From Candidatus Saccharimonadota bacterium (GTDB lineage: Bacteria; Patescibacteriota; Saccharimonadia; Saccharimonadales; Saccharimonadaceae): a stretch of 34,437 nt of DNA. A program made the position numbers and the translations under genes. This document shows positions 129 to 34,323 of this stretch, piece after piece. The first letter of the stretch is position 1, and every line of letters starts with the position of its first letter. The stretch spans positions 1-34,437 of the forward strand of contig JAFRCG010000021.1 in assembly GCA_017404515.1 (NCBI GenBank). Reading direction: 5' to 3'. Under the pieces are notes generated by a model. That model searched no databases, was not told the origin of the DNA, and was given only the letters and a program-made list of their open reading frames with translations.

Positions 129-362
129 ACCCGCTTCTCCTTCTATTCCACCTTTTCCCGTCGGTATCCGCTTTCGTATGTATTTGCAGGCAATTATTAT
201 TGGAATGGAACAAATGCTGGAATGCTAGCTAATCAAGGGATCTTGGTTGACATGGTAACACTTACAAACTATACAGCAACTCAAATCGTCGGTATGAGAA
301 TATCTAGCGTATTAACTCCGCAAGATCCAGGCGACGATAAAAGAACTGGGTTCCCTCTCTGC
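120..362 (+). pseudogene. Detached FISUMP/C-type-lectin-like variable-domain fragment (cluster 1, plus)
   Basis: The frame encodes about 81 residues running from SRRYPLSYVFAG to TGFPLC, the C-terminal part of a FISUMP-like lectin fold of the type ending the DGR target at 942. The only start available is a GTG at 120 with no SD, inside the hairpin arm. There is no signal peptide and no N-terminal domain, so this is a fragment rather than a complete gene. It meets the minus-strand fragment at 371 tail to tail, and the GF-L-C ends of both form an inverted repeat (about 348-362 and 371-388). The frame stays open to 467, but only by reading antisense through the other fragment. It could be a silent donor module or a relic. 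Confidence 0.6.
157..182 (+). repeat. 26-bp element, copy 1 of 5 (encodes RRYPLSYV)
   Basis: The element begins CCCGTCGGTATCCGC and ends TTTCGTATGTA. Copies lie at 157-182 (+), 546-570 (-, 25 bases identical), 33691-33716 (+), 34081-34106 (-) and 34297-34322 (-). They are identical even at synonymous positions, although the adjacent codons differ strongly. This suggests selection, recent copying or recombination at the DNA level rather than only protein-level constraint. Confidence 0.85.
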
Positions 363-370
363 CAAGTCTC

Positions 371-595
371 GCAGCGGAGAGTAAACCCGTTGGCCTTATT
401 AAGGTTATTCTGGGGGAAGAGATTGCTACTAACCATGCCCAGGGCGTACGCACTACTATCACTGTAGGCTGCGGTAGACCACCAGTTCCCGTGGGCGTCC
501 TGGTTGTACAGGTTACCATTGCCCCAGACATAGTAGCCTGAGAACACATACGAAAGCGGATACCGACGGGCAGATGTGGAGCGGGATGGAGGCAT
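371..595 (-). pseudogene. Detached FISUMP variable-domain fragment (cluster 1, minus), DGR-like variation
   Basis: This fragment reads about 75 residues from an ATG at 595 (no clear SD) through ARRYPLSYVFSG, NWWSTAAYS and FPQNN to GFTLRC. It aligns throughout with the minus fragment at 33904-34107. The two differ mainly at the first two bases of NNC/NNT codons (for example AAC/TTC, TAC/CGC, GGC/TAC), which is what DGR mutagenesis of AAC/AAT template codons would leave. The codons fixed in both include the WWSTAAYS core and PQNN. It has no signal peptide or N-terminal domain. It is probably a detached variable repeat of another DGR target; expression is doubtful. Confidence 0.6.
546..570 (-). 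repeat. 26-bp element, copy 2 of 5
   Basis: Reverse-strand copy of the element that encodes RRYPLSYV. It matches the other copies over 25 bases and differs at the last one (GTG instead of GTA). It lies at the start of the minus-strand variable-domain fragment. Confidence 0.85.
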
Positions 596-941: not shown

Positions 942-2768
942 ATGTCAAATAATCGTATTAAACAGTTTAATTTTCGGAGGAAAATATTACTTTCTTCAGA
1001 AAAGCGGGCAGTTGTGGCTTCAGCTACCGTATTTTTGGTAGCTTTTTTGACTACACTTATCGCTTCTTCTATCTTGGCGCCAATTGATTCTTCTAACGCC
1101 ACTGGTACTACAGTTACGGCTAATATTAACGCCTCAGATTATTATCTAAACATTACCTCCCATGATGTTGAAATGAACTTATCCTCCTCAATTACGGGCT
1201 CCTATGCTGCAGCTTATGACACTATTACTACCAAGACCAACTCTCCGTCCGGTTATAAGCTATATGTTTCGATGGAAAGAGACTCAGATTATGATGCCTC
1301 TCATCCAGGAAACGCCCTCTACAAGAATGGAGACAGTACTGTTAGTCCATTTATATCTCCCACTAACGGTACTTTCTCTTCCCCGGCTGCACTCGACATG
1401 AACACTTGGGGTATTAGTGTTAGTAATACTTCTACTGGCAAAGAATCTACCTTCTTTGCTGTTCCACTATTGAACTCTCCGCAGCTTCTCCAAACTACAT
1501 CATCGGCTAATGAATCTGGCGTAGATAAACGGCTAGATTTTGGCTTTGCAGCTAATGCTGCTATGCCAATGGGATCTTACGCTGGTACCATACTTTATAC
1601 TGCTACAGCCAATGCTAATAGCAGCGGGAACAATGAACTACTGGTCACTCCGGCTTCTACCGCTTCCCTAGCTGGTGGAGAATCTGTAGTTATTACTACC
1701 TCACTATATACTAATTATCCACTAGAAACCGACCAGGTAGGGGTTACTATTGGCGGCAATACCTGTACGGTTACGGCAGTTGTTACCAATGCGTCGGTTG
1801 GCACCAAGGAAATTACTTGTACCTTGCCAGCTAGCGCTACTGCCGGTAAAAAAGATGTAGTGGTTAATATCCCGCTTTTTGGCTGGAACAAGACTTTGAC
1901 CGAAGGCTTCCGCTATGGCGATTTCTGGAGTATTACTTACATGCAGGATATGACGACAGAAATATGTAACACAGTCTATACACCTTCCAATGTCGTAGGC
2001 GCTGCTGCAAGTATTATTACTGACAAAGCTAACTATACCGCTACAGCCGATGGCACCAACCAAGTCCCACAGCGCACTCTATACGATTATCGTGGAATAA
2101 ATGGAACTGGTACGGCTGCAAATCCAGCTACTGGCTCTAATGTGGCAGCCTACACTGTCAAGAAGCTTGCTGATGGTAACTGTTGGATGACGGACAACTT
2201 GAAGCTGACACTAACTGCTGGACAAGCGGTTGCTATTGCCAAGAACTCCGATGGCACCGCTAATGGCACCTGGACACCGGTAGCGTCCACTGGCGATGGC
2301 TCTGCCACAGAAGCGCTCAACCGTAATACCAAGGCCAATGACGCAACTACCGGTCAATGGTATTACTCTTGGTGGGCAGCTACAGCTGGCTCAACTGAAT
2401 CAACTGGTGGCACAGATGCTCAAAATTCTATTTGCCCTGTGGGCTGGAGGCTTCCATCCGTCTATGGCACCGTTCAGGGTAAATCGTATGGTAATCTCAC
2501 TAATGTTTATGGCATTACTACAAACGGCACATCTAGTGTCTCTGGCGACTATACTTCTACACTAGAATCTAATGTCCTTAACTTCGCTCGCTTTGGTTAC
2601 TACTACAGTGGCAGCCTGAACGCTAATAATTCCTACGGCTACTACTGGTCGTCTGCGGCGAACAATGCTAACGACGCTTACGGCTTGTACTACAATTCAA
2701 GCGATGTCCGCCCCCAGCGCAGCAGCCTCAAGTACGGCGGTCGTAGTGTGCGCTGTGTAGCCCTGTAG
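942..2768 (+). CDS. DGR target: membrane-anchored FISUMP/C-type-lectin-like surface protein with variable C-terminus
   Basis: This 608-aa protein starts at an ATG 5 nt after AGGAGG. Residues 24-46 are a hydrophobic signal anchor (or signal peptide) after a basic N-terminus, so the rest is predicted to be outside the cell. A Ser/Thr/Asn-rich beta region (about 50-225) is followed by an IPT/TIG-like region (about 229-320) and a FISUMP domain (about 330-608) with the hallmarks NCWMTDNL and ICPVGWRLP. The last 61 codons are the variable repeat. Seventeen residues differ from the template-encoded version (553, 555, 561, 565, 567, 578, 581, 583, 588, 590, 593-596, 598, 599, 602), every one of them Asn in the template. 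Scaffold residues such as YW, SSA and RCVAL are kept. The likely role is a diversified ligand- or host-binding surface protein. The ligand is unknown. Confidence 0.9.
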   Translation: MSNNRIKQFNFRRKILLSSEKRAVVASATVFLVAFLTTLIASSILAPIDSSNATGTTVTANINASDYYLNITSHDVEMNLSSSITGSYAAAYDTITTKTNSPSGYKLYVSMERDSDYDASHPGNALYKNGDSTVSPFISPTNGTFSSPAALDMNTWGISVSNTSTGKESTFFAVPLLNSPQLLQTTSSANESGVDKRLDFGFAANAAMPMGSYAGTILYTATANANSSGNNELLVTPASTASLAGGESVVITTSLYTNYPLETDQVGVTIGGNTCTVTAVVTNASVGTKEITCTLPASATAGKKDVVVNIPLFGWNKTLTEGFRYGDFWSITYMQDMTTEICNTVYTPSNVVGAAASIITDKANYTATADGTNQVPQRTLYDYRGINGTGTAANPATGSNVAAYTVKKLADGNCWMTDNLKLTLTAGQAVAIAKNSDGTANGTWTPVASTGDGSATEALNRNTKANDATTGQWYYSWWAATAGSTESTGGTDAQNSICPVGWRLPSVYGTVQGKSYGNLTNVYGITTNGTSSVSGDYTSTLESNVLNFARFGYYYSGSLNANNSYGYYWSSAANNANDAYGLYYNSSDVRPQRSSLKYGGRSVRCVAL

Positions 2769-2806
2769 GCTTGTCGCCTTTCTCCGCTAGTTCTCCGCCC
2801 GTTCTC
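2583..2806 (+). repeat. DGR variable repeat (VR)
   Basis: This stretch aligns without gaps over 224 nt to the reverse complement of 4843-5066. There are 24 differences: 23 lie where the template has A (A to T, G or C), and one is a silent C-to-T at 2597, near the 5' edge. The last changed adenine is in codon 602 (2745-2747). The following 59 nt are identical, including adenines, and run 38 nt beyond the stop codon at 2766-2768. That invariant 3' block is the expected homing-initiation segment. Confidence 0.95.
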
Positions 2807-2826
2807 CCCCACATCGGAGAATGGGC
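2797..2826 (+). promoter_or_regulatory. Stem-loop at the 3' edge of the VR
   Basis: The arms GCCCGTTCTCC (2797-2807) and GGAGAATGGGC (2816-2826) form an 11-bp stem with one G-T pair and an 8-nt loop. The left arm lies in the sequence shared with the TR; the right arm is unique to the VR side. In the Bordetella phage DGR a hairpin just downstream of the VR is needed for efficient target recognition, so this is a candidate equivalent. It lacks a T-tract and would be a poor terminator. Confidence 0.65.
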
Positions 2827-2890
2827 TGTCGGCCTAGAGAGATAAAATGGGCAAATATTGATATAAATAATCTGAGAGTGAGGAGAAAAA

Positions 2891-3688
2891 GTGCCAGGAC
2901 GAGAAAGAGAGATTATCGAAAATCAAAAGGCTTTGGCTAGAAAAGCTGCCTATGTCCGTCGCAAAAGGACGGTGATGGACCGTGAGAAAACAAATGATCG
3001 TTTGGTGATTCTCTTTCATTCTGACGGTAAGTGGTGGAAGATTGCTGGAAAATCAGTAATCTACTATACCAAATTGATTGCGCCTAGAATCAAGAAAAAA
3101 CCAAATGTTCTGCCGGATGATGACTATTCTGACAAATCAGAGCAGGGTGTAATTATGGTGGGCGACATTGAAAATTTTCTTGAGAAGGTGAAATCACTTG
3201 GCCTCAAAGAAGTTAAAGAAAGCAACGAAGAGTATCGTGCGGTAGAACTAAGTCAAAAAGTGACTCCGGAAGAATATAATGCTTTGGTCAGAGAAGATGA
3301 AGAAAAATGGGAAATGATTGGACGGATGTTGATGCCAGCGGTGAATTGGCCTGCTATTAAATCAACATTACTGGCGACGCTTAGCTTGACTAGGGAAACT
3401 ACCAGACATTTTAGTGCACCTTTGCAGCGAACGATAGGCGATGGTATGATGCTAGATGTGGTTGATATGATAAAAAATCTTAATATGACCGCTCATCGTC
3501 AAAAAGACCCACTGGAGGGTCTTATTTTTATGGAAGAGAGGCTAGATAGTTTGGACGCGTATCTGATGTGTGTAACACAACTAAGGTTGTTCCAGTCAAA
3601 TAAAGCTTATGATTACGCAACGCTAACACAACGGCTAAGAAAATTAGTAGAAAAAGAGCTAAACAAAGAAAGTAAAAGACAAAAATGA
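2891..3688 (+). CDS. DGR accessory protein: MutS-like N-terminal domain plus Avd-like helical domain
   Basis: This 265-aa protein starts at a GTG 5 nt after AGGAG (2881-2885). Its 3' end overlaps the RT start by 4 nt (ATGA), which implies translational coupling. Residues 36-115 resemble the mismatch-sensing domain I of MutS: LVILFHSDGKWWKIAGKSV is followed by a basic stretch and a helix with FLEKVKSLGLKEV. Residues 150-255 are predicted to be mostly helical and rich in basic residues, like the Avd four-helix bundle that binds the DGR RT and template RNA. MutS-like (MSL) accessory proteins are, to my memory, known in some DGRs. The Avd-like assignment of the C-terminus rests on position, size and helicity and is less certain. 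It probably chaperones template RNA or cDNA during mutagenic homing. Confidence 0.7.
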   Translation: MPGREREIIENQKALARKAAYVRRKRTVMDREKTNDRLVILFHSDGKWWKIAGKSVIYYTKLIAPRIKKKPNVLPDDDYSDKSEQGVIMVGDIENFLEKVKSLGLKEVKESNEEYRAVELSQKVTPEEYNALVREDEEKWEMIGRMLMPAVNWPAIKSTLLATLSLTRETTRHFSAPLQRTIGDGMMLDVVDMIKNLNMTAHRQKDPLEGLIFMEERLDSLDAYLMCVTQLRLFQSNKAYDYATLTQRLRKLVEKELNKESKRQK

Positions 3689-4815
3689 CATCAATTGAGT
3701 TGCCGTATCTTTTGGAAGGAAAGATTGAGCGTGAATGGCTGGAAAGAAAACTCTATATAGCTTTTATGGCGGCGCGGAAGAGAAAACTTGCGACTAAGGA
3801 TGAATATAGTTTTGAAATGAATTGGCGGGAAAATATTTCTCTGCTTGCGGATGATATTTTGCGGTGCAGATACAAACCTAGTCGTGGGATTGCTTTTATT
3901 GTGAAAAAGCCGGTGATAAGGGAGATTTTTGCAGCGCCTTTTAGGGATAGAGTGGTACATCACTTCTTATATAATATGGTGGCGGATTGGTGGGATAAAC
4001 GACTAATTTATAATTCTTTTTCTTGTAGGAAAGGCAAGGGCGTGCTTTTTGGAGTAAAAAGATTAGATAAAGACATCAAGCGAGCGACGCAAAATTATAC
4101 GGTTCCGGGATATGTTATCAAGATGGATATTCAGGGATATTTTATGAGTTTGTCGCGCGATAAACTTTTTGAACGCGTAATGTGGGGTCTAAAACGCCAA
4201 TACAAAGATAAAGGACCAATATTTCAGCTGCTTAAATATTTGTGGTACGAAATTATATTTGACGATCCGGTGAGAGGCGTGAAATTACGCCCGCCAATTT
4301 CGGCTTGGAATGAGTTGCCAGAAAATAAGAGCTTGCTGCATCAGCCAGATGGCAGAGGAATTGTAATTGGAAATTTATCATCGCAGCTACTTTCCAATAT
4401 CTATCTCGATCAGTTAGACAGATTTATAACAATGCGGCTTGGATATAAATATTATGGCAGATATGTGGATGATTTTTATATCGTAGTGCCGGAGGGAAAA
4501 TATGCGCAAGCCAAAAAAGATGTCAAAGTAATAGAAGATTATCTTTTGGGGATAGGCTTGGTACTGCACCCAAACAAGCGATATATACAGAATGTAGACC
4601 GAGGCGTAGCATTTCTTGGAATGGTGATCTATCCTTATAGGATTGTGCCCGGGCGTAGATTTAAGGAAAGCTTCTACCGAGCGGCATATGAGTATGAGGC
4701 GGGGCTAAGAAAAGACGAGGCGATTATTTCGTATTTGGGATATTGTAAGCACTTAAAGGGTAGAAAGCTTTGCCAAAAGGTGTTCAATTCTGTGGGGTGG
4801 GAATATACGATATAA
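3685..4815 (+). CDS. DGR reverse transcriptase
   Basis: This 376-aa RT of the group II intron/DGR lineage shows the expected motifs in order: RT-0/1 region with IVKKPVIREIFAAPFRDRVV (70-90), VIKMDIQGYF (144-153, first catalytic Asp), GIVIGNLSSQLLSNIYLDQL (225-244, carrying the SQ typical of DGR RTs instead of group II intron residues), YVDDF (260-264, catalytic pair) and LGMVIYPYR (311-319). There is no maturase or endonuclease domain, and the length is normal for DGRs. It copies the template RNA and misincorporates opposite adenines. It overlaps the accessory gene by 4 nt. The TR lies 27 bp after its stop, on the other strand, so template RNA running past the TR would be antisense to the RT 3' end. 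Confidence 0.95.
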   Translation: MTSIELPYLLEGKIEREWLERKLYIAFMAARKRKLATKDEYSFEMNWRENISLLADDILRCRYKPSRGIAFIVKKPVIREIFAAPFRDRVVHHFLYNMVADWWDKRLIYNSFSCRKGKGVLFGVKRLDKDIKRATQNYTVPGYVIKMDIQGYFMSLSRDKLFERVMWGLKRQYKDKGPIFQLLKYLWYEIIFDDPVRGVKLRPPISAWNELPENKSLLHQPDGRGIVIGNLSSQLLSNIYLDQLDRFITMRLGYKYYGRYVDDFYIVVPEGKYAQAKKDVKVIEDYLLGIGLVLHPNKRYIQNVDRGVAFLGMVIYPYRIVPGRRFKESFYRAAYEYEAGLRKDEAIISYLGYCKHLKGRKLCQKVFNSVGWEYTI

Positions 4816-4842
4816 ATTGTTTGGGTGAGGGGCGTTTGTCGA

Positions 4843-5066
4843 GAGAACGGGCGGAGAACTAGCGGAGAAAGGCGACAAGCCTACAGGGCTACACAGCGCA
4901 CATTACGACCGTTGTTCTTGTTGTTGTTGTTCTGGGGGTTGACATTGCTTGAATTGTAGTTCAAGTTGTAAGCGTTGTTAGCATTGTTCGCCGCAGACGA
5001 CCAGTAGTTGCCGTTGGAATTATTATTGTTCAGGCTGCCACTGTTGTAGTTGCCAAAGCGAGCGAA
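4843..5066 (-). repeat. DGR template repeat (TR), inverted relative to target and RT
   Basis: Read on the minus strand (5066 down to 4843) this is the 224-nt template of the VR. Its open frame would encode 24 Asn codons (AAC/AAT), 17 of which are changed in the present VR. No start codon or SD precedes it, and it is not a gene. The 3' part, including the TAG corresponding to the target stop and 38 nt beyond, matches the VR exactly. The orientation means template RNA must come from a minus-strand promoter, either the candidate at 5251-5280 or read-through from dus. Confidence 0.95.
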
Positions 5067-5070
5067 CTAC

Positions 5071-5245
5071 AAAACATCAATCGCCTAGAACTCCAGTATC
5101 GCTTGGTCAAGAGAAACAACTTATAATTGAAATCATCCCTTGGGATTATCCCAAATTAGCCTCGTAGTAGCGAGGGTGTTTCTGTTCTCCCGGAGATGTA
5201 GGGCCAGAGGGCAAGCAGATCTTCCCTTTGGGGCCTCGCCCCTCA
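5071..5245 (-). ncRNA. Structured leader of the predicted template RNA
   Basis: Between dus and the TR there are about 175 nt without a gene. In order along the minus strand they hold stem-loops with arms 5230-5234/5238-5242 (GGGGC/GCCCC, 3-nt loop), 5204-5211/5224-5231 (CCAGAGGG/CCCTTTGG, which competes with the first), 5160-5164/5171-5175 (CCTCG/CGAGG) and 5140-5144/5150-5154 (TTGGG/CCCAA). They would form the 5' leader of a transcript that continues into the TR. The first hairpin might instead end dus transcripts, but it lacks a T-tract. The RNA boundaries are inferred. Confidence 0.4.
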
Positions 5246-5250
5246 GTATA

Positions 5251-5280
5251 ATTATAAGACTACTTTAGGAGCCTTCTCAA
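5251..5280 (-). promoter_or_regulatory. Candidate promoter for the template RNA
   Basis: On the minus strand TTGAGA (5280-5275) stands 18 nt before a perfect TATAAT (5256-5251), with the -35 inside the last codons of dus. Transcription would start near 5244, giving a structured leader of about 175 nt and then the TR. This is the best promoter match between dus and the TR. Confidence 0.55.
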
Positions 5281-6243
5281 TTCTTGCGTATTTTTGCAAG
5301 CCATTAGCTGATTACGGAGTTCTTTGCTGCCATCCTGGCTGTTGATATACATTTTGAAAAAATGTTTGAGCGGTTCGTACGGATAATGAGAATTGCGATT
5401 TTCTAGTTCTTTTGCACGAGCGTCATACAAATCTAAGTGATATAGGAAAAGTTCTTTTAGCTCTGTTTGGGTTGGCGTATGGTCTGTAAAACAATATGGG
5501 TTTTCAAAGACGCCACGTCCAATCATAAAACCATCAATTTGAGGATATTTTGCAGCAAGGGCCTTAGCGGCAGATTTGTTTTTGATGTCTCCGTTAAAAA
5601 TTATTTTGGTATTAGGAGAAATTTGATCTCTCAAATTTAGGATTTCGGGGATGAGCTCGTAGTGGGCAGGCACCTTACTCATTTCTTTCCTAGTGCGAAG
5701 ATGAACAGTGAGTGCAGCTAAATTTTGCTCTAGCAAGAGTGGTAGCCAAGTTTTGTATTCGTCAATAAAAGTATAACCAAGACGAGTTTTGACTGAGACT
5801 GGTAGATTTGTGGCATTTTTAGCGGTTTTGATACACTCTATGGCGAGATCTGGCGTGGTAATCATAGCGGCCCCACCACCAGCCTTATTGACATGGCGGT
5901 CTGGACAACCCATGTTGATATCTAGGCCGTCAAAGCCTAATTTTTCTAGAGCGGCAGCGGTATCTGCAAAATGAGCTGGATTCTTTCCCCAAATTTGGGC
6001 AACGATTGGTGATTCTAGGTTTTTTCCATTTTGGTCTTTTGCAATGTCTAATCTTTCTAAAGCGTCGTGCCGGCCTTTTTCTGAAGCGTAGCTAGAAACA
6101 TTGGTAAATTCGGTAAAAAATACATCTGGTCTGCCAGCTTTAGCAATGACTTGGCGAAACACTATATCTGTAACGCCTTCCATAGGAGCTAGAATCAAAA
6201 AATGGGGAGGGAGTTTTTGCCAGAAAGAATTAGTATTTGACAT
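5260..6243 (-). CDS. dus: tRNA-dihydrouridine synthase
   Basis: This 327-aa TIM-barrel flavoenzyme of the Dus family reduces uridine to dihydrouridine in tRNA. It shows LAPMEGVTD near the N-terminus (FMN site), DINMGCPDRHVNKAGGGA with the GCP cysteine (general acid), SVKTRLG, IIFNGDI and IGRGVFENPY, followed by the short helical domain. The ATG at 6243 was chosen because homology begins just after it. The frame is open 47 codons further up, but those run through the terminator and the zinc-ribbon gene. TATAAT at 6258-6253 lies only 9 nt before the ATG and there is no SD, so the message is probably nearly leaderless. The Dus subtype cannot be decided. Confidence 0.92.
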   Translation of the reverse strand: MSNTNSFWQKLPPHFLILAPMEGVTDIVFRQVIAKAGRPDVFFTEFTNVSSYASEKGRHDALERLDIAKDQNGKNLESPIVAQIWGKNPAHFADTAAALEKLGFDGLDINMGCPDRHVNKAGGGAAMITTPDLAIECIKTAKNATNLPVSVKTRLGYTFIDEYKTWLPLLLEQNLAALTVHLRTRKEMSKVPAHYELIPEILNLRDQISPNTKIIFNGDIKNKSAAKALAAKYPQIDGFMIGRGVFENPYCFTDHTPTQTELKELFLYHLDLYDARAKELENRNSHYPYEPLKHFFKMYINSQDGSKELRNQLMACKNTQELRRLLK

Positions 6244-6290
6244 ATTTAGATAATTATAACATAGTTTTAGGAAAAGAAAAGCGGAATAAG

Positions 6291-6318
6291 TAAAAAGGTG
6301 GAACAAAATATTCCGCCT
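6291..6318 (-). terminator. Rho-independent terminator of the zinc-ribbon gene
   Basis: On the minus strand AGGCGGAA and TTCCACCT (6318-6311 and 6303-6296) pair over 8 bp with one G-U and a 7-nt loop, followed by a T-run. It sits 15 nt after the stop of the small gene at 6333. Confidence 0.6.
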
Positions 6319-6332
6319 AGGGTGGTTTGAGC

Positions 6333-6506
6333 TTAGACAACGCCGCTGCCTTTGCAGACAGGACAAGTTAAGTTTGGCGCCCAAAATTGGACAATAATTC
6401 CCTTTCCGTCACACTTTGGACACTTTTGCTTAGCACAGCAAGCTGCAGCTCCTTTTTCTGTCAAATGTACTCTACCACATTTTGGGCAGTTGTAAGTTGT
6501 ACTCAA
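6333..6506 (-). CDS. Small DnaJ-type zinc-ribbon protein (57 aa, TTG start)
   Basis: The frame encodes 57 residues with NCPKCG (6-11), a CC pair (23-24), CPKCDGKG (29-36) and CPVCKGSG (48-55). The last two are the CxxCxGxG repeats of the DnaJ central zinc domain, so it should bind one or two zinc ions and may act as a small chaperone-like or RNA/protein-binding factor. Translation most likely starts at the TTG at 6506, preceded by a strong SD (GGGGGTG) at about 8 nt. No in-frame ATG is available at the right place. A terminator follows at 6291-6318. Exact function unknown. Confidence 0.75.
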   Translation of the reverse strand: MSTTYNCPKCGRVHLTEKGAAACCAKQKCPKCDGKGIIVQFWAPNLTCPVCKGSGVV

Positions 6507-33520: not shown

Positions 33521-33670
33521 GGGGCCTGCATAAAACAGGCTACTAGAGTTTGGGACTTAGCCTCTGTACATTTTTACAACAGGCAAAGTATTTGCCAGTT
33601 GTAAAAATACAGAGTCTAAATCTGGTCTAAATCTCATTACAAACTCTAGTAGCCCTGTTTTATCGGCCCC
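33521..33670. repeat. Long imperfect hairpin before fragment cluster 2
   Basis: From the ends inward the arms pair as GGGGGCC, ATAAAACA, a bulged G, GGCTACTAGAGTTTG, an asymmetric internal loop that is longer on the right arm and contains two TCTAAAT copies, CTCTGTA, a bulge and TTTTTACAA. The tip is a small hairpin GGCAAA-GTA-TTTGCC. The general plan is the same as 3-128, although the stem sequences differ. It ends about 20 bp before the RRYPLSYV module on the plus strand. Nothing else is seen between the response regulator and this hairpin. Confidence 0.75.
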
Positions 33671-33677
33671 CTCCTCC

Positions 33678-33899
33678 TATTCCACCGGTGCCCGTCGGTA
33701 TCCGCTTTCGTATGTATATGCTGGAGGATACTTATGGTCAACTGGCGATGGAAGATCAGATTACCAAGGAACAGGTGGACAATACTACTCTAGCACAGCG
33801 GTAAGTGGCACTCCCAGCAAACAATACATGCTCATGTTTTCCAATATTATGGATCCGCAATATGGAAACTATAAAATATTTGGTTTTCCTCTCCGCTGT
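33678..33899 (+). pseudogene. Detached FISUMP variable-domain fragment (cluster 2, plus)
   Basis: The frame encodes about 74 residues from YSTGARRYPLSYVYAG through YYSSTAVS to FGFPLRC. It has no start codon with an SD, no signal peptide and no upstream domain. The end meets the minus-strand fragment in an inverted repeat (GGTTTTCCTCTCCGCT at 33882-33897 and its complement at 33906-33920), the same tail-to-tail arrangement as in cluster 1. The frame continues open to 34017 only as antisense of the other fragment. Confidence 0.6.
33691..33716 (+). repeat. 26-bp element, copy 3 of 5
   Basis: Plus-strand copy, identical to copy 1 over 26 bases. It marks the start of the plus-strand variable-domain fragment. 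Confidence 0.85.
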
Positions 33900-33920
33900 A
33901 AGATTAGCGGAGAGAAAACC
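33882..33920. repeat. Palindromic junction between convergent fragments
   Basis: GGTTTTCCTCTCCGCT, an 8-nt spacer, and AGCGGAGAGAAAACC are complementary apart from one bulged base. The palindrome arises where the conserved GF-LR coding ends of a plus and a minus fragment meet. It also contains the TAA stop of the minus fragment (33904-33906). Cluster 1 has the corresponding junction at 348-388. Confidence 0.8.
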
Positions 33921-34107
33921 CGTAGGCTTTATTATCGTTATTCTGGGGGTAGAGACCGCTACTACCCATGTACAGGGTGTACGCGTCGTTACTACCACTG
34001 TAGGCTGCGGTAGACCACCAGTCTCCGCTGGAGTCCTGGTTGCGTAGGAAACCATCGCCCCAGCCGTAGAAGCCTGAGAATACATACGAAAGCGGATACC
34101 GACGGGC
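33904..34107 (-). pseudogene. Detached FISUMP variable-domain fragment (cluster 2, minus, module B), DGR-like variation
   Basis: This fragment encodes about 67 residues from ARRYPLSYVFSG through NQDSSGDWWSTAAYSG and YPQNN to YGFSLR, where TAA replaces the expected Cys codon. It aligns with the cluster 1 minus fragment, with differences concentrated at the first two bases of NNC/NNT codons. It is fused in frame to module A upstream through GMALRSTT. The stop arises from the palindromic junction. It is likely a detached variable repeat. Confidence 0.6.
34081..34106 (-). repeat. 26-bp element, copy 4 of 5
   Basis: Minus-strand copy at the start of module B, identical to copies 1, 3 and 5 over 26 bases. 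Confidence 0.85.
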
Positions 34108-34323
34108 TGTTGTGGAGCGGAGAGCCATGCCGACATTTTTAGAGTATTCACTTACAGGGTTGAGGTTGTTATTGTGTACTCCTAGGTTGATAGCTTTTGT
34201 ACTATCCGTAGTAGTACTAGTCCAAGCAAAAATAAATTCGTTTTGATATCCTAGCCAACCGCCATTATCACCATACCAGTAGTAATCGCCAGACATTACA
34301 TACGAAAGCGGATACCGACGGGC
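34108..34323 (-). pseudogene. Detached FISUMP variable-domain fragment (cluster 2, minus, module A)
   Basis: This module reads ARRYPLSYVMSGDYYWYG and ends VGMALRSTT, where the next module begins in the same frame. It is therefore a head-to-tail copy of the same domain, with GMALR at the place of the terminal GF-LRC. The possible start codon is the ATG at 34296, without an SD. Its A/T-rich codons resemble the two plus fragments rather than module B. The upstream side is a hairpin (34382-34427), not a signal peptide or N-terminal domain. Confidence 0.55.
34297..34322 (-). repeat. 26-bp element, copy 5 of 5
   Basis: Minus-strand copy at the start of module A, identical over 26 bases to copies 1, 3 and 4. 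Confidence 0.85.

Follow-up and report, generated by a model that had tools for sequence, protein, structure and literature searches.

Gene order and the paired repeats

The window analysed here is the whole 34,437-nt stretch JAFRCG010000021.1 of a Candidatus Saccharimonadota bacterium, which is the entire contig C13 of a 763 kb genome in 29 contigs (98 % complete). Near its start lies a diversity-generating retroelement (DGR), in which three open reading frames (ORFs) follow one another on the plus strand: a target gene (942–2768, 608 aa), an accessory gene with a GTG start (2891–3688, 265 aa) and a reverse transcriptase (RT) gene (3685–4815, 376 aa). The variable repeat (VR, 2583–2806, plus strand) sits at the 3′ end of the target gene, with the stop codon within it, and the template repeat (TR, 4843–5066) lies on the minus strand, antisense to the RT gene and 27 bp past the RT stop. 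The initial annotation had described the same order of target with VR, accessory gene, RT and opposite-strand TR, and the ORF positions agree with it. Close relatives of the RT, same-genus members among them, come from Candidatus Saccharibacteria of ruminant guts, and the host is therefore taken to be a ruminant-gut Saccharibacterium.

The target protein has a hydrophobic segment at its N-terminus (about residues 24–46) and a C-terminal FISUMP/Fib_succ_major-like domain that ends in the VR. Matches of this domain to PF09603 (E=7e-7) and TIGR02145 (E=1.7e-9) were both slightly under the curated cut-offs, and a C-type-lectin fold for it is putative. The RT carries the motifs YVDD and IGNLSSQ, matches RVT_1 with E=2.7e-12 and has the RT of the BPP-1 DGR as its top PDB match (8ub7, E=1.8e-17).

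Alignment of the VR with the reverse complement of the TR was gapless over 224 nt, with 24 mismatches. From TR to VR these were 12 A>G, 7 A>T, 4 A>C and 1 C>T, placing 23/24 at template adenines; adenine makes up 62 of the 224 template nucleotides, and by binomial arithmetic the chance of at least 23/24 mismatches at A is ~3e-12. The sole non-A difference, a C>T at 2597, is silent (GGC>GGT). Residue changes were found at 17 codons, each replacing an Asn encoded by AAC or AAT; such codons mutate into NNC or NNT, and stop codons therefore never arise. The final 60 bp of the two repeats, stop codon included, are identical, and the boundary of homology falls at 2806 in the VR and 4843 in the TR. 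An independent ungapped TR/VR scan of the first 8 kb recovered the identical pair and no better one, and the blind scan also recovered the annotated TR and VR of BPP-1 as a positive control. The repeat coordinates, length and lack of gaps reported earlier, together with the 23 adenine differences, the silent C-to-T and the 17 replaced Asn residues, were reproduced to the base by the realignment.

An inverted repeat at 2797–2826 (plus strand; 11-bp stem, 8-nt loop) starts inside the end of the VR and extends past the point where VR homology stops; the TR lacks the second half of this inverted repeat. BPP-1 also has a hairpin next to its VR, a homing hairpin shown to be required (PMC3240598), and the repeat at 2797–2826 is a candidate counterpart that may form a homing hairpin or cruciform. 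As a trait of the RT clade described below, a hairpin 3′ of the VR was not significant over 19 loci.

The reverse transcriptase clade and its accessory protein

RT relatives were gathered from 199 genomes of the family as well as from GTDB contigs, and their loci were scanned for TR/VR pairs. In the RT tree, a check proposed in the initial annotation, the window RT fell within a 25-member Saccharibacteria clade with 100/100 support, and its neighbours all carried TR/VR pairs where pairs were found. A third, very divergent RT of the same genome (L040, C26:38876–39403, 438 aa) served as the outgroup.

The TR was antisense to and downstream of the RT in 19 clade loci with unambiguous long pairs, and also in a short pair at L086. 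Summed over the 19 loci, 443 mismatches were at A and 16 elsewhere, a count tilted toward A by the pair finder, which filters for A bias. Further non-duplicate loci of the genus had an antisense TR in 15/15 cases. Weighing against a clade-wide layout, the clade member L110 carries its TR in sense, the layout of L097 is ambiguous, and the TR/VR scan of clade loci L095, L103 and L105 gave no TR. Read from these layouts, the antisense TR is a trait of the whole Saccharibacteria clade and not a one-locus oddity.

The placement of the VR varies, and in four relatives (L081, L098, L100 and L102) it lies on the TR strand. In L110 (genome G009) the sense TR is upstream of the accessory gene and an antisense VR lies beyond the RT, a layout that would possibly represent a swap of the TR and VR roles. 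For the sister and outer lineages (Bacteroidota, phages, other Saccharibacteria and BPP-1), the TR was mostly sense and upstream of the RT. Other antisense layouts accompany the distant RTs L118–L120 and L131, which indicates that inversion arose more than once in DGRs.

The repeat pattern also bears on whether the element still functions. A formerly active and now silent DGR, with the VR as its frozen product, would fit the one non-A difference at 2597 and the many genomes of the genus that lack an RT of this type. We consider this improbable, given three intact ORFs, the location of 23/24 differences at A, the identical 3′ part and stop codon shared by TR and VR, and the repetition of the TR/VR pattern in 34 clade loci.

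A structure model of the accessory protein, built from seven homologues (pLDDT 86, and 88 for the N-terminal 140 residues), contained an N-terminal alpha/beta domain and a C-terminal four-helix bundle (residues 149–263). The bundle matched chains of 4dwl and 8ub7 with VIA Z of 14–15 and Foldseek TM of about 0.8 on target, and its nearest structure was 2gsc, a known Avd relative. Helical bundles match widely, yet Avd and its known relatives 2gsc and 2rld top the match list, and on the model the C-terminal domain has the Avd fold. The N-terminal 140 residues showed a weak likeness to MutS domain I, with VIA Z of 4–5 to several MutS chains in one register. This likeness was tied with GFRP and KCTD H1, and Pfam MutS_I (PF01624) was matched by 1/21 members (E=0.07). 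MutS-like (MSL) proteins are a known DGR accessory type (PMC10053308), but a MutS domain I identity for this N-terminus stays tentative, the likeness being weak and tied with unrelated folds.

A profile of the clade accessory proteins finds avd-position ORFs in relatives. Those with a sense TR have short proteins matching just the Avd part of the profile, whereas clade members carry the N-terminal extension; Avd is thus stand-alone in the Bacteroidota, phage and BPP-1 relatives and N-terminally extended in the inverted-TR clade. Most likely, TR inversion and Avd extension arose a single time, at or close to the root of the Saccharibacteria clade. The accessory proteins of L084 and L097 have an apparent extra N-terminal helix-turn-helix domain (PF01381, 2/21 members), which suggests that they may bind DNA.

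With a TR/VR pair, a DGR-type RT and an Avd-fold accessory protein all present, the locus is on its sequence a genuine DGR and, as the initial annotation had held, a complete one. The antisense TR after the RT likewise stood, while the description of the order as unusual must be qualified, since the layout is clade-wide and inverted DGRs have been known since 2012. These are the group 4 of Schillinger et al. 2012, from the gammaproteobacteria Shewanella baltica OS155, Vibrio sp. RC586 and Photobacterium angustum S14 (PMC3521204), which resemble the window in having RT and TR on opposite strands and A-specific TR/VR differences. In group 4, however, TR, VR and target lie together opposite the RT, whereas in the window target, VR, accessory gene and RT are co-stranded and the TR alone is reversed; the window DGR also belongs to another lineage and has an extended accessory protein. 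Cassette pattern G5 of Yan et al. 2019 (PMC6642488) again has the RT inverted relative to the other parts, as here; in the part of that survey available to us, the pattern is defined by order and strand alone, without accessory or clade information, and the inverted pattern is listed there as over 20-fold less frequent than the standard arrangement. A global survey has placed a Patescibacteria-only DGR clade (PMC8144416). In an incomplete literature search, no description was found of TR inversion combined with an extended Avd and a separate template promoter. BPP-1 (mtd / avd / TR / brt) shares with the window an Avd-fold accessory protein, a related RT, a VR at the 3′ end of a gene and A-specific differences, but its avd, TR, spacer and RT are all on one strand, whereas in the window 27 bp separate the TR from the RT stop beyond it.

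Source of the template RNA

DGR mutations arise opposite template A. As the mismatches here are at A and not at T, the template has to be a minus-strand transcript, one that the RT operon cannot supply, and the template RNA and the RT mRNA should therefore be convergent and separately controlled. The initial annotation had foreseen that antisense placement would affect how template RNA is made, and the A-not-T mismatches do demand a minus-strand transcript. The 27 bp separation of RT and TR on the plus strand would favour an RT operon mRNA that reads the TR in antisense and acts as the template. Such an mRNA has U at the difference sites and predicts mismatches at template U, whereas every inverted locus is mismatched at A of the TR-strand reading, so that this explanation is scarcely credible. 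It was already argued for inverted DGRs in 2012 that RT mRNA and template RNA need not form one unit or transcript (PMC3521204).

A candidate promoter for the template RNA was found at 5251–5280 on the minus strand (TTGAGA-18-TATAAT, 11/12 consensus), its -10 box 184 nt upstream of the TR. It is among the strongest promoter-like sites in 2700–5600 and lies on the strand matching the TR. An exact TATAAT also occurs 170–185 nt upstream of the TR in 7/19 loci, whose upstream sequences differ. Several points weigh against a dedicated promoter: the call is a consensus match, and the whole scan gave 9 sites vs 6.5 expected from shuffles; just 2 of the first 19 loci have promoters of at least 10/12 (0.6 expected); and the TATAAT clustering was spotted after the fact, with a bin test P of about 0.003 before correction.

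The same DGR might instead obtain its template RNA from dus read-through or from another upstream minus-strand promoter, with no promoter dedicated to the TR. The dus gene (5260–6384, minus strand) is directly upstream of the TR on the TR strand, ending at 5260, and a scan total that does not exceed the shuffles is in keeping with this source. The strand and place of the best promoter site, and the -10 boxes clustered 170–185 nt upstream in seven loci, speak against it, and we regard it as rather unlikely. A separate promoter upstream of the TR (5280–5251, minus strand) thus probably drives the antisense template RNA. Taken as a whole, the locus is very probably a working inverted-TR DGR of a ruminant-gut Saccharibacterium with a separately promoted minus-strand template RNA.

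The 3′ side of the TR was also examined. In 5/19 loci vs 0.46 expected, an intrinsic terminator on the TR strand followed the TR within 70 nt, and at least in these five the template RNA probably forms a short transcript by itself. In BPP-1, a structured spacer 3′ of the TR recruits the RT–Avd complex (PMC12875486), whereas in the inverted clade the 3′ side of the TR is antisense RT sequence or a terminator (5/19). A terminator right behind the TR would leave little room for the 3′ spacer that is central to the Bordetella priming model.

On the 5′ side, a candidate structured RNA (5112–5183, minus strand) is predicted as a three-way junction, 45 nt before the TR, with a 7-bp closing stem (AGAAACA/TGTTTCT) round two hairpins. 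An AGAA-core three-way junction was found 5′ of the TR in 8/19 loci vs 0.5 expected, with compensatory changes in the closing stem. These findings are tempered by the held-out loci, where the stem core occurred in 0/15 and a closing stem of any sequence in 4/14 (2.0 expected), compared with 11/19 (2.5 expected) in the discovery set. The leader element was therefore rejected as a clade feature, having failed in the held-out loci, and was kept for the window and some relatives. Part of it (5160–5175) scores as a terminator when read on the plus strand, which is an alternative cause of the hairpin. Folding-energy z-scores of the TR flanks in the inverted clade were weak (mean -1.05 upstream and -0.81 downstream); in sense DGRs the 3′ spacer scored somewhat more strongly (-1.53). 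An Rfam search gave nothing beyond a chance match to a miRNA model.

In the proposed mechanism, a minus-strand promoter near 5250–5280 would yield a template RNA that passes through the structured leader on the 5′ side before entering the TR. Copying of this RNA by the RT, together with the extended Avd protein, would place random bases opposite template A. The resulting cDNA would then be exchanged for the 3′-terminal VR of the surface-protein gene, with the identical 3′ part of the two repeats and the adjoining hairpin as guides. The clade-wide antisense TR implies that a DGR template RNA can be a separate transcript, one that probably has a start site and, in some relatives, a terminator of its own. 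The RNA needs of these RTs become directly testable through a small panel of natural variants. As Saccharibacteria spend their lives attached to host bacteria, diversification of a putative surface lectin would bear on keeping or changing hosts.

Putative lectin-domain cassettes related to a second retroelement

A second complete DGR of the same clade is present on contig C29 of this genome (L044, 5062–7891), with an RT 58 % identical to that of the window and an antisense TR. The window DGR is the sister of the C29 DGR and has the same antisense template design. The VR ORF adjacent to the C29 DGR is just 85–96 aa long, without the N-terminal part of the target.

The C29 TR starts with most of a 24-bp repeat, CGTCGGTATCCGCTTTCGTATGTA, that was found at 86 genome sites in both orientations (reversed control, zero). 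This repeat opens about 86 short in-frame cassettes of a putative lectin domain, distributed over some 20 tandem or head-to-head arrays. Ungapped alignment to the C29 TR over at least 180 nt was obtained for 27 cassettes; 595 of their mismatches fell on template A and 208 on other positions, corresponding to 0.39 mismatches per A site and 0.05 per other site. With the C29 TR as reference, 74 % of the mismatches were at A, vs a mean of 32 % (maximum 48 %) with a cassette as reference, which ruled out the cassettes as an unrelated gene family. Among 57 more diverged copies, a stop within 60 codons occurred in 1 in the coding frame vs 51 and 57 in the other frames, and the cassette 3′ block was in phase in 65/66. 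The frame-specific lack of stops and the A-mismatch bias indicate that the cassettes are in-frame copies of the VR, apparently under coding constraint, and the sister DGR appears to have seeded about 86 such small target-domain copies.

Five of the cassettes are located at the two ends of the window, where the 24-bp repeat occurs at 159–182, 545–568, 33693–33716, 34081–34104 and 34297–34320. At the left end are a diverged cassette of the second-DGR type (165–364, plus strand), with its repeat at 159–182, and a cassette at 363–562 (minus strand) with 17 A and 6 other mismatches to the C29 TR over 193 nt. At the right end, the repeat scan and TR comparison gave a diverged cassette at 33699–33898 (plus strand), followed by one at 33899–34098 (minus strand) with 13 A and 4 other mismatches to the C29 TR over 112 nt and by a diverged one at 34115–34314 (minus strand) that is in frame with the next cassette.

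Contigs of the assembly end at cassettes, and C1 and C9 have their first 141 bp in common but differ from the end of the 24-bp repeat onward, which would fit a repeated or duplicated leader or cassette exchange in the population. The assembly yielded no full-length gene of the cassette type. In the related species G307, one lies beside the DGR (L085), and on contig C19 of that species (L182:5285–10001) at least 12 VR-like cassettes, related to the TR of G307 itself, are arranged in tandem. A shufflon-like cassette system, with inverted site-specific repeats, alternative C-terminal pieces and a dedicated recombinase, is a possible comparison: the 24-bp repeats occur in both orientations, the pieces are in frame, and the genome encodes two tyrosine recombinases.

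Dispersed VRs are shared by the second DGR and the remote-target DGRs of cyanobacteria (PMC7517822) and Thiohalocapsa PB-PSB1 (PMC10907252), for both of which mobile elements are suspected in VR dispersal. Those remote targets are whole genes, whereas most of the second-DGR cassettes are domain pieces that lack the N-terminal part, with a 24-bp start in common. We put forward, as a tentative reading that may well prove wrong, that the C29 VRs were copied into about 86 constrained cassettes forming a stored lectin-domain repertoire exchangeable at the 24-bp start, and that G307 does likewise. If so, and if the cassettes are used, hypermutation would be joined to a stored repertoire, with retrohoming and cassette exchange as two stages of one diversification system.

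The cassette arrays are bordered by long imperfect hairpins that fall into a few recurring families and have a MITE- or attC-like appearance. They occur in the window at 1–120 (e.g. 28–47/73–92) and at 33528–33665, and also at the ends of contigs C4, C6, C7, C10, C16, C2, C5, C28 and C23.

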